Virus record (IMG/VR): IMGVR_UViG_3300047668_000375
Location: 1-20,805 of that record
DNA length: 20,805 nt
Source: a virus
Reading direction: 5' to 3' (one strand)
Part shown: positions 14,914 through 19,328 of the stretch, piece after piece
How the letters are laid out: the number at the start of each line of letters is the position of its first letter
Position numbering within the stretch: position 1 is the first letter of the stretch
The notes under the pieces: generated by a model
Told to the model about the DNA's origin: nothing
The model's database searches: none
Seen by the model: the letters and a program-made list of their open reading frames with translations, nothing else
Program-made: the position numbers and the translations under genes

Positions 14914-14957
14914 TTACTTCTCCTATTTAGTTATGTGATTAATTCAATCACGAAGTG

Positions 14958-14986
14958 AGTATATCATAAACGATATATAAAGTCAA
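14958..14986 (-). promoter_or_regulatory. Leftward sigma70-type promoter
   Basis: On the minus strand: TTGACT, 17 bases, TATACT, with TG in the extended -10 position (TGATATACT). The -35 overlaps the stop codon of the upstream gene (ending 14983). It drives the 14913 to 12010 unit that holds the Erf-like and ssb genes. Confidence 0.7.
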
Positions 14987-16198: not shown

Positions 16199-16226
16199 AT
16201 TATATCACAATTGAGGTACTTGTCAA
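16199..16226 (-). promoter_or_regulatory. Leftward consensus sigma70 promoter
   Basis: On the minus strand: perfect TTGACA (16226-16221), 16 bases, perfect TATAAT (16204-16199), and a TG at the extended -10 position. It lies between the terminator at 16258 and the 16154 gene. Confidence 0.85.
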
Positions 16227-16257
16227 GCTTTATTTAATTAAACAGAACAAATAAGTT

Positions 16258-17118: not shown

Positions 17119-17181
17119 CTGTGTATCTCCTATTAAGTTAAAAGTTTGTCTCGCCATCAAGTGTGTCTCAATGACGAGGTA

Positions 17182-17210
17182 ATTATGCCAGCTCTTAGAC
17201 TGTTTGTCAA
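17182..17210 (-). promoter_or_regulatory. Leftward promoter of DUF932 gene
   Basis: On the minus strand: perfect TTGACA (17210-17205), 17 bases, CATAAT (17187-17182). The transcript would start near 17175, inside a 13-base motif repeated at 17838-17850. Confidence 0.8.
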
Positions 17211-17221
17211 GAACTATTTAA

Positions 17222-17539
17222 TTAGACAGAAGCTTGGGCAACTTTCTCAGCAACTGAAACCATGCATCCGCAGTCATCGCATGGGATGTCTATCCACTTG
17301 TCATAGCTAACTTCTTGACCGCCAGCATAGAACTTGTAGCCGCTAACTTTTTCTACAGCTTCTTGGACAATCTGCTTAGGCTCAGTCATGTTGCTATCTA
17401 TTAGTTGGTCAATAAACATTTCAACCAAACCACTAACGTCTTGTCTAGTGGCTAACCTTGTAGATGTCTTACCATCAAGTAGGTTTTTAATATGGTCGCG
17501 CTGAGTATCTGTTAAAGTAATTTTAATATTTGTATTCAT
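17222..17539 (-). CDS. Small early protein with C-terminal Cys cluster
   Basis: 105 residues, ATG with AGGAG 6 bases upstream. The N-terminus (MNTNIKITLTDTQRDHIKNL) with following helices resembles ribbon-helix-helix or other small helical DNA-associated proteins, though no family is certain. A second part, YKFYAGGQEVSYDKWIDIPC, leads to a CDDCGC cluster near residues 90-95. That could be half of a zinc-binding site in a dimer. It is the second gene of the unit from the 17884 promoter, after hairpin B. Confidence 0.62.
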   Translation of the reverse strand: MNTNIKITLTDTQRDHIKNLLDGKTSTRLATRQDVSGLVEMFIDQLIDSNMTEPKQIVQEAVEKVSGYKFYAGGQEVSYDKWIDIPCDDCGCMVSVAEKVAQASV

Positions 17540-17581: not shown

Positions 17582-17803
17582 TTAGTTTATGTAAAGGTTT
17601 CCGTCAGTTCTTAAATCAAAATTGTTAACATCGAACCAATTTGGATTGTCTAACAAGCCTTGTCTAACTGAACCTTTTTTAGTTTCAAGGTAAAGACCCT
17701 CATGACCAGAAATCATAGCCCAAGCAAAAACGTGTTTAGCTTTTGCAAGCATTTTTGTAATTTCTTTATTTTGTTCTTTATTATATTTTTCAAATGCGTT
17801 CAT
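17582..17803 (-). CDS. First leftward early gene, unknown function
   Basis: 73 residues, ATG with AGGAG 7 bases upstream. A charged N-terminal helix (MNAFEKYNKEQNKEITKMLA) is followed by KAKHVFAWAMISGHEGLYLE and a strand-rich end (NPNWFDVNNFDLRTDGNLYI). No family recognised. It is nearest to the divergent control region and is driven by the promoter at 17884-17856, so it should be among the first leftward genes expressed. Confidence 0.65.
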   Translation of the reverse strand: MNAFEKYNKEQNKEITKMLAKAKHVFAWAMISGHEGLYLETKKGSVRQGLLDNPNWFDVNNFDLRTDGNLYIN

Positions 17804-17855
17804 TGTATCTCCTGTTTAAGTTAAAAGTGCCACCGTTTGTCTCAATGACGCAGTC

Positions 17856-17884
17856 ATTATATCATATAAGATACGTTCTGTGTA
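17856..17884 (-). promoter_or_regulatory. Leftward promoter with extended -10
   Basis: On the minus strand: TACACA (4 of 6), 17 bases, perfect TATAAT (17861-17856), with TG at the extended -10 position (TGATATAAT). It reads into the leader of the 17803 gene. Confidence 0.7.
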
Positions 17885-17912: not shown

Positions 17913-17941
17913 TTGACCTAGATTTAATCTACGGGTATGAT
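17913..17941 (+). promoter_or_regulatory. Rightward promoter for the structured RNA
   Basis: TTGACC (17913-17918), 17 bases, TATGAT (17936-17941): five of six matches at each box with ideal spacing. The predicted start is at about 17948, five bases before the first long-range helix of the structured region. Confidence 0.72.
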
Positions 17942-17947
17942 TTGTGT

Positions 17948-18540
17948 TCTTGGTTTAGAGTTATTTAAGAGATTAGATAGCAAAAATGCCTAGAGTGATT
18001 GAAGCTCTAAGCATTTTCTAAACTGGTGTTTGCCCCACCGTTCTATGAAAGATTATACCATTTTCAGTTCAGAAGGCAACTATCAGGATACGACTGTAGA
18101 TATGTCTGACTTCGGTTTCACTCACTACAGTAAAAAAAAGAGATTCAGCTATGTGTTCCAAGAAGCTGTTGATTGATGTTTAGATAAGAACCTTTATGTT
18201 GGTAACCACCTCGGAGGCTAAGAAATCTAAGCGCAGAGTGCAGAAGGCTGAGTACCTATTACAAGGTAGCGATGACTCTGACCTAATTAGTTGTATTGGA
18301 ATTAGGCATACGGATAATACTGCGAAGGACTTATACCGATGAATGAATCTCTAGTTTACTTGACTGTAGGCTAGGGATTTCTTTGCTCCGAAACTCCCAG
18401 CTCAGGAATTACCCGATAAGTTAAGAGCTAAGATTAAAAGCTCTAAAAAAAAGGAATTTATTCCTAAGCTCTACCGAAGAGTAGCTTGGGTGCTTTAGCA
18501 CCGAGCAGACAAACGAACGAAGTGGAGTGCGTTCAGGGAG
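17948..18540 (+). ncRNA. Candidate giant structured ncRNA (~0.6 kb)
   Basis: No convincing gene lies in 17804-18615. Within it, at least thirteen helices can be read in order: 17953-17959/18017-18023 enclosing 17984-17995/18005-18016; 18025-18028/18036-18039; 18046-18050/18062-18066; 18093-18099/18125-18131, enclosing a C(UUCG)G tetraloop at 18110-18115; 18146-18150/18164-18168; 18234-18239/18275-18280, enclosing 18253-18257/18264-18268; 18282-18288/18300-18306; 18311-18317/18331-18338 (one bulge); 18346-18354/18371-18379; 18424-18429/18439-18444; 18452-18456/18461-18465 with a UUUA loop; 18484-18493/18498-18506 with a second UUUA loop; 18515-18519/18530-18534. A near-consensus promoter lies just upstream. 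Size, phage setting and complexity recall the GOLLD and ROOL classes of large ornate RNAs, but I cannot match a consensus. The 3' end is uncertain. Confidence 0.68.
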
Positions 18541-18580
18541 AATAATAAATGTTAAACCAACTAAGAAAAGTTATCTATGG

Positions 18581-18589
18581 TGATATAAT
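18581..18589 (+). promoter_or_regulatory. Rightward extended -10 promoter
   Basis: TGATATAAT at 18581-18589 is identical to the extended -10 of two leftward promoters. No good -35 is present 16-18 bases upstream. It would start a transcript near 18596, giving the 18616 gene a leader of only about 20 bases. Confidence 0.55.
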
Positions 18590-18615
18590 TAAATCTTTTT
18601 CAATATATATTTATT

Positions 18616-18825
18616 ATGAAGAAAGCTATTTATTATCATTCAATCCCAGCAGAAATTAAAAGGTTAGGCATAACACAGAAAGAATGTGCTACTTTACTTG
18701 GATGTTCTCTGTCAGGTTTAACTCATCGTATCGCCGCAAACAAACAACAGCTACATTGGGCAATCTATGGAGTTTCAAATTATTTAGGAGCTGAAGAAAA
18801 TCTGCAACGTAATGTCGAAGGATGA
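18616..18825 (+). CDS. Small HTH (Cro-like) regulator
   Basis: 69 residues. Residues about 10-42 form a helix-turn-helix: IPAEIKRLGITQKECATLLG, then CSLSGLTHRIAA, followed by a short helix (LHWAIYGVSNYLGAEENLQR). The TQKECATLLGCSLSGLTHRI part matches the Cro/XRE or YdaS-like pattern of phage control genes. No SD is visible before the ATG, so it may be translated from a near-leaderless message. It is the first gene of the rightward unit and sits beside the divergent promoters, suggesting it governs that switch region. Confidence 0.68.
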   Translation: MKKAIYYHSIPAEIKRLGITQKECATLLGCSLSGLTHRIAANKQQLHWAIYGVSNYLGAEENLQRNVEG

Positions 18826-18973
18826 GGTAGCTGAGACTATTCATTCTTTAATGACTTTGTTAGGTAAGCTTGACGATAAGAAATTAAAAGGTGAACTGGA
18901 AAACCAAATTATTAGATTGTGTGACCAGCTTAAATCTACCATGATAATGGATAAGATACGAAATGAAAAATGA
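18812..18973 (+). CDS. Hidden 53-residue helical protein
   Basis: 53 residues: MSKDEVAETIHSLMTLLGKL, then DDKKLKGELENQIIRLCDQL, then KSTMIMDKIRNEK. It fills the gap between the HTH gene and the VRR-NUC gene, overlapping the first by 14 bases and the second by 11. It looks amphipathic-helical with heptad-like spacing. No strong SD is visible, which fits coupled translation. Function unknown. Confidence 0.55.
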   Translation: MSKDEVAETIHSLMTLLGKLDDKKLKGELENQIIRLCDQLKSTMIMDKIRNEK

Positions 18974-19328
18974 TGAACACCTAGTACAAAAAGCTATATG
19001 TGAGTATTTAGATATGCGGAAGATTTTTTATTTTGCTATTCCGAATGGTGGTAAGCGCAGTAAATCTGAAGCTGGTAAGTTTAGAGCAGAGGGTGTTAAA
19101 AGTGGTATCCCTGATTTATGTCTTCTTATGTCAGGCATTGCATTTTTTTTAGAAGTGAAGAGACCTAAAACAGATAGCAACCCGGCTGGAAGGTTGACAG
19201 ATAATCAAAAAATTATGATTGAAAAGTTAGAGGATGCTGGCTCAGATACTGCTGTGGTATATTGTGTAGCAGATGTCATTGGACAATTAATAGATTGGGG
19301 ATTTAATGAAACAAAACGCAATAACTAA
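18963..19328 (+). CDS. VRR-NUC family nuclease
   Basis: 121 residues. The catalytic pattern is complete: GIPDL with Asp51, then FFLEVKRPK with Glu64 and Lys66, then TDNQKIMIEKLEDAGSDTAV with Gln82. This is the minimal phage form of the VRR-NUC domain (PF08774), a PD-(D/E)XK nuclease that can cut branched DNA such as Holliday junctions. The N-terminal segment LVQKAICEYLDMRKIFYFAI with PNGGKR is also typical. It likely processes recombination or replication intermediates before packaging. It overlaps the next gene by 23 bases. Confidence 0.9.
   Translation: MKNDEHLVQKAICEYLDMRKIFYFAIPNGGKRSKSEAGKFRAEGVKSGIPDLCLLMSGIAFFLEVKRPKTDSNPAGRLTDNQKIMIEKLEDAGSDTAVVYCVADVIGQLIDWGFNETKRNN

Follow-up and report, generated by a model that had tools for sequence, protein, structure and literature searches.

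We read positions 17948-18540 of IMG/VR record IMGVR_UViG_3300047668_000375, a stretch of about 600 nt without protein genes between back-to-back gene blocks, as a new family of large (~500-600 nt) structured phage non-coding RNA. The window that we analyzed comprises positions 1-20,805 of this record (20,805 nt), and the carrier of the stretch is a marine-type phage. Comparison of homologous sequences shows that the region is non-coding and has conserved a single fold of several domains, in which helices covary and two loops make a kissing contact. The first-pass annotation had proposed a large structured RNA at this site, a view now backed by covariation in all domains and by the fact that no reading frame survives in most homologues. 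The most likely reading, to which we assign a probability of roughly 0.6, is that of a stand-alone folded RNA. The folding energy of the single window sequence is only mildly better than chance (z = -2.3, with 1 of 100 shuffles equally good) and by itself proves little; it is the homologues that settle whether the structure is real.

Homologues were fetched by way of the neighbouring VRR-NUC gene, which yielded 49 phage loci, and in most of these blastn found 17948-18540 to be conserved, across a wide range. When IMG/VR was scanned for exact patterns taken from conserved cores, 77 loci and then 6 additional ones came up, and looser patterns combined with a covariance-model check added at least 20 (at least 3, then 17). 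The RNA is carried by at least about 100 IMG/VR contigs, is 54-100% identical to that of the window, and is spread over the window's own group and no fewer than three divergent clades, whose type loci are L041/L097, L267/L272 and L355/L363. Two loose patterns run on viral contigs returned mostly chance matches among those listed, and one of them revealed a divergent clade. A covariance model built on 18226-18402 (R1) found the window as its sole match in 0.77 Mb searched, a set that also included two cultured phages, six distant relatives and 78 pattern-chance loci, and made no false matches in ~0.75 Mb of other phage sequence. Each of seven longer RNA-bearing records contains one copy.

The phages that carry the family form a group whose genomes measure close to 40 kb. 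When three family members were used as blastn queries, cultured phages gave no DNA match to the RNA, one of the three queries returning short chance-level matches only; two motif scans of 84,980 bacterial and archaeal species genomes gave zero matches. On these grounds the carriers seem to be uncultured phages and not known prophages. By capsid protein (65%), the closest phage in culture is Octadecabacter Antarctic DB virus 2, whose 39-kb genome has no match to the RNA model. A description of this RNA was not found in the literature searched, coverage of which was incomplete.

Covariation was assessed with our own R-scape-style implementation, an APC-corrected G-test for which null alignments were produced by reshuffling the inferred substitutions over columns along a FastTree tree. 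For a first set of 49 sequences, RNAalifold gave a consensus of -148 kcal/mol with 120 pairs, 14 of them significant; when all 228,826 column pairs were tested, four passed E<0.05, and all four were consensus pairs. A second set, with divergent clades added and redundancy cut to 95% (47 sequences), had a consensus energy of -159, and the two pairs significant in its all-pairs test were again both consensus pairs. Among its 126 consensus pairs, 21 were significant at E<0.05, spread over every domain, whereas the adjacent coding stretch of the same phages, run through the same pipeline as a control, gave -9 kcal/mol and 24 pairs, none of which was significant. In independent pair counts, the core and domain III (described below) beat all 500 shuffles on both paired cells and double changes, and conservation follows the helices, not codons.

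The RNA lies on the plus strand, as do all of its parts named here; its 3' limit is approximate, the last covarying columns mapping to ~18525. Domain I (17953-18023) is a three-way junction closed by P1 (17953-17959/18017-18023) and containing hairpins at 17961-17983 and 17984-18016, and the nesting of P1 around 17984-17995/18005-18016, one of several pairings noticed in the first-pass annotation, is present where it had been placed. Compensatory changes are seen in this domain across the window's group, with significant columns at 17987-18013, 17991-18009 and 17996-18004. Some of the details first pointed out are not shared by all homologues: P1 is missing in one divergent clade, L041/L097, which lacks both P1 and the first domain I hairpin and keeps the second. 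There follows a small hairpin (18025-18039), GGUG/CACC in the window and GGUG/CACC, GGCAG/CUGC or GGAA/UUCC among homologues. Domain III (18086-18158) is a stack of the helices 18088-18092/18152-18156, 18094-18099/18125-18130 and 18104-18111/18114-18121; across its 16 pairs, 98.9% of cells are paired and 10 pairs are doubly changed, and none of 500 shuffles was as good. The C(UUCG)G loop that had been pointed out is indeed present, at 18110-18115, but the UUCG is kept in close relatives only.

The helix 18174-18183/18227-18235 (overall 18174-18235) includes five significant covarying pairs, from 18179-18231 to 18183-18227, and is capped by a length-variable insert that ranges among homologues from a tetraloop to more than 100 nt, being absent from L010 and long in L041 and L052. 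The core (18234-18306) is formed by Pa (18234-18239/18275-18280), Pb (18253-18257/18264-18268) and Pc (18282-18286/18302-18306); here, too, the enclosure of Pb by Pa and the start of the next helix at 18282 are as originally described. In the core, 97.5% of cells are paired and 12 pairs are doubly changed (kissing contact included), a result reached by none of 500 shuffles, and slid controls were 28-38% paired. Domain V (18311-18388) consists of a hairpin at 18311-18338 and the helix AAUCUCUAG/CUAGGGAUU (18346-18355/18370-18379), whose bases are near-invariant and whose tip covaries at 18355-18370 and 18359-18366.

Within the core, the loop of Pb (18258-18263, AUUACA) is complementary to that of Pc (18292-18297), the contact extending over 18258-18297. 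The Pc loop reads UGUAAU in most homologues and UGUAUU in the window, and 92.4% of cells of the contact are paired. The pair 18260-18295 is UA in 16 sequences and CG in 10, and the loops of L267 are AUCAUA/UAUGAU, two exchanges with pairing retained. As judged from these alignments, the loop-loop (kissing) pairing is maintained through compensatory changes; it is weakened in L008, L076 and, partly, in the L041 clade.

Toward the 3' end (18452-18506) lie a GGAA-UUUA-UUCC hairpin (18452-18465), whose pair 18455-18462 covaries (E=0.03 when all column pairs are tested), and a last hairpin that varies. At 18484-18506, the UUUA hairpin of nine pairs and one bulged G that had been reported at the end of the RNA is indeed present, but it is confined to the window and its close relatives; the last hairpin is CGCUGAAAGCG or CUCCGAAGGAG in most homologues, and the significant columns 18486-18523 and 18488-18521 represent the homologues' hairpin, in place of which the window has its own. 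The GGAAUUUAUUCC hairpin was found as claimed. The last 3' hairpin is exchanged between lineages (18481-18530 in the window, and the 3' parts of L041 and L106), as if it were a small mobile hairpin, and several lineages share a 3' element, GCUUGG[G/A]UGCUUUAGCA[C/U]C followed by ACAAACGAACGAAGUG. We also considered a helix closing the whole RNA, between 5' UUGGUUUAG and 3' CUAAACCAA, which is present in many homologues. It was not adopted because it is broken in others, its pair 17953-18557 being only 68% paired, whereas the inner P1 is compensated.

The RNA is preceded by a sigma70-like promoter, TTGACC-17-TATGAT (17913-17941, plus strand; 10/12 matches), already recognized in the first-pass annotation, whose register with the RNA start is held across homologues. 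Nearly every member of the window's group has, 9-12 nt ahead of the first helix, a -10-like hexamer (mostly TAT[G/C/T]AT) and, 16-18 nt above it, a -35-like one; the mean best promoter score is 8.7 versus 7.5 of 12 in shuffles, and the divergent member L097 has a perfect TTGACA-16-TATAAT. A second promoter, with the extended -10 TGATATAAT (18581-18589, plus strand), lies between the RNA and the following helix-turn-helix (HTH)-like gene, and TGnTA[TC]AAT is found downstream of the RNA in 44 of the 49 homologous loci. Since conserved promoter-like sites bracket the RNA, a separate transcript is favoured, and the RNA is probably one. No intrinsic terminator was found past the last hairpin on the plus strand, so that transcription may run on into the operon, leaving the 3' end of the RNA undefined. 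A TATC-N6-GATA dyad (18571-18590), which recurs in homologues, overlaps the extended -10 and is possibly an operator for the HTH-like protein.

The position of the RNA between a leftward and a rightward gene block is fixed. The leftward block, which includes SSB and a DUF932 protein, ends with a minus-strand gene at 17582-17803; its minus-strand genes are preceded by similar repeated leaders, e.g., TCAATGACGCAGTCATTATATCATATAAGATA (14944-14975, 16220-16247, 17161-17186, 17204-17231 and 17842-17873), that, read leftward, resemble reiterated promoters with a TGAC...GTCA dyad. The rightward recombination-terminase block runs through NinB to terminase. Its first gene (18616-18825, plus strand) encodes a small protein of family F0, which has no Pfam match and which we infer from its sequence to be HTH-like; in 65 of 66 loci (52/53 and a further 13/13) it is the next gene after the RNA and shares its strand. 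The usual order thereafter is a 50-70-aa protein, VRR-NUC (18963-19328, plus strand, in the window; Pfam PF08774, E=1.4e-8), a YbcO-like nuclease, NinB and the families of putative terminase subunits, assigned by position and sequence. tRNAs were found neither in the window nor in 16 related loci. In a related phage locus, L044:246-307 (minus strand), there is a near-threshold match to the type II hammerhead ribozyme (34.9 bits against a cut-off of 37, E=0.0024).

What might such a molecule do? As a stand-alone RNA, it would be started by host RNA polymerase at ~17948, a start strongly suggested by the promoter, and would be separate from the downstream operon, which would be served by its own promoter; the folded RNA may then act during infection as a scaffold or as a binder of a host or phage component, as has been supposed for GOLLD and ROOL. 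The main rival, which we hold to be possible yet distinctly less probable, makes it a cis-acting leader of great length for the rightward operon: while nascent, the RNA would fold on or near RNA polymerase and control elongation into the recombination and packaging genes, or would switch between folds. The place of the RNA directly upstream of the HTH-like gene in nearly every locus speaks for a leader, as does the lack of an intrinsic terminator separating the two, and so do distant relatives (L042, L043 and L045-L047) in which the SSB and HTH-like genes are co-oriented with SSB upstream and which gave no match to the RNA model. However, gene order is conserved throughout these phages, which makes fixed position weak evidence, and, given the second conserved promoter, the gene can be started without the RNA. 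The phage RNA that offers a precedent, HK022 put, is also several times smaller than the present one, which counts against a leader. In its nascent state, put suppresses pausing and termination (PMC9378689).

That the DNA similarity is a trace of coding, left by a gene in decay or by several small protein genes, is already contradicted by the alignments, and we give it almost no credence. The window does have two 48-aa ORFs, 18030-18176 and 18196-18342, open also in a few close relatives, but these and a third frame (18370-18496) were rejected as coding: across 47-48 homologues the three are disrupted by net frameshifts in 28-32 and by stop codons in 37-40, leaving 4, 8 and 2 intact among ~48. 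A Pfam search of the region's ORFs gave no credible match, and the conservation along helices described above likewise opposes a coding origin; the earlier statement that 17948-18540 holds no convincing gene therefore stands, there being no conserved ORF or protein in it. In one clade only (L355, L356, L361, L363, L360 and L354), an antisense ORF of ~130 aa overlaps the RNA, spanning about -380 to +25 relative to the core motif; no comparable antisense ORF of at least 40 aa is found in the RNA region of the window. The packaging RNA of phi29, pRNA, suggests another role, in packaging or virion assembly, for an RNA that lies near the terminase genes and is held together by loop-loop contacts. 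The kissing contact and a position at the head of an operon that contains terminase genes (TerL-like family F12) would suit it, but nothing specific points to such a role, the distance to the terminase genes is 2-3 kb, and packaging proceeds in related phages that lack the RNA; we regard this role as very unlikely.

Whichever reading prevails, at least about 100 examples, a fixed genomic address, flanking promoters and a covarying tertiary contact make this RNA a target for structure work and deletion tests, for which the relatives without it are a natural comparison. As a cis leader, the RNA would stand out for its size among RNA regulators of phage operons; if multimers form, RNA assembly would seem to be something that phages resort to repeatedly. 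To our knowledge, few large and highly structured phage RNAs exist, and for the best known of them, GOLLD and ROOL, the function is unsolved.

The first-pass annotation had offered two identities, a divergent member of GOLLD or ROOL or a new class, and the Rfam comparisons favour the latter: the RNA is structured and matched no library family. Against Rfam 15, the window had no match at gathering scores and chance-level matches only at relaxed scores, and 13 related loci gave only sub-threshold or chance-level matches lying outside the RNA; GOLLD and ROOL were absent at E<=10 in the window region and at E<=1 in the 13 loci. At E<=10, the GOLLD model (RF02032) matched none of seven records from related phages, in a search whose control genomes gave sub-threshold GOLLD matches only, and the ROOL model (RF03087) likewise matched none, in a search without a positive control. 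Because the models fail in these seven records and no tRNA is near, we do not file the RNA as GOLLD or ROOL. That it is nonetheless a divergent member, the library models being too narrow, is very improbable in our estimate, although the ROOL search, lacking a positive control, leaves remote kinship conceivable, and size, phage location, ornate fold, kissing loop and length-variable insert are all similar (PMC12286853).

Both of those families are phage RNAs, frequently encoded close to tRNAs, that have kissing loops as well as variable linkers and assemble into cages made of RNA only (PMC12286853). Like GOLLD, the present RNA is a large, phage-borne structured RNA with a conserved and a less conserved part, a length-variable insert and kissing loops (PMC12286853), but it always heads one operon. 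Like ROOL (~570 model positions), it is phage-borne and has a multi-branched fold in which loops make tertiary contacts and a linker varies (PMC12286853), but it is not part of a tRNA island, its insert can shrink to a tetraloop, and its helices differ as far as sequence can tell. HK022 put is far smaller and a strictly nascent cis element. What the present RNA has in common with it is that it is a phage RNA placed upstream of the genes of an operon (65/66 loci), from where it might act on host RNA polymerase (PMC9378689). The ICP1 ncRNA (~800 nt), which is abundant and was likened to GOLLD and ROOL by its authors, is alike by description only, as a large phage ncRNA in ORF-less space of a phage without tRNAs (PMC7567579), and belongs to another phage and another position. 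In size, non-coding character, complex covarying structure and a tertiary contact supported by covariation, the present RNA resembles the large ornate phage ncRNAs as a general kind, not as a homology family. It is a tentative and rather doubtful further step to see in it a third phage RNA class, unrelated to GOLLD and ROOL, whose kissing contact would be intermolecular and would drive a putative loop-mediated self-assembly into an RNA-only complex.
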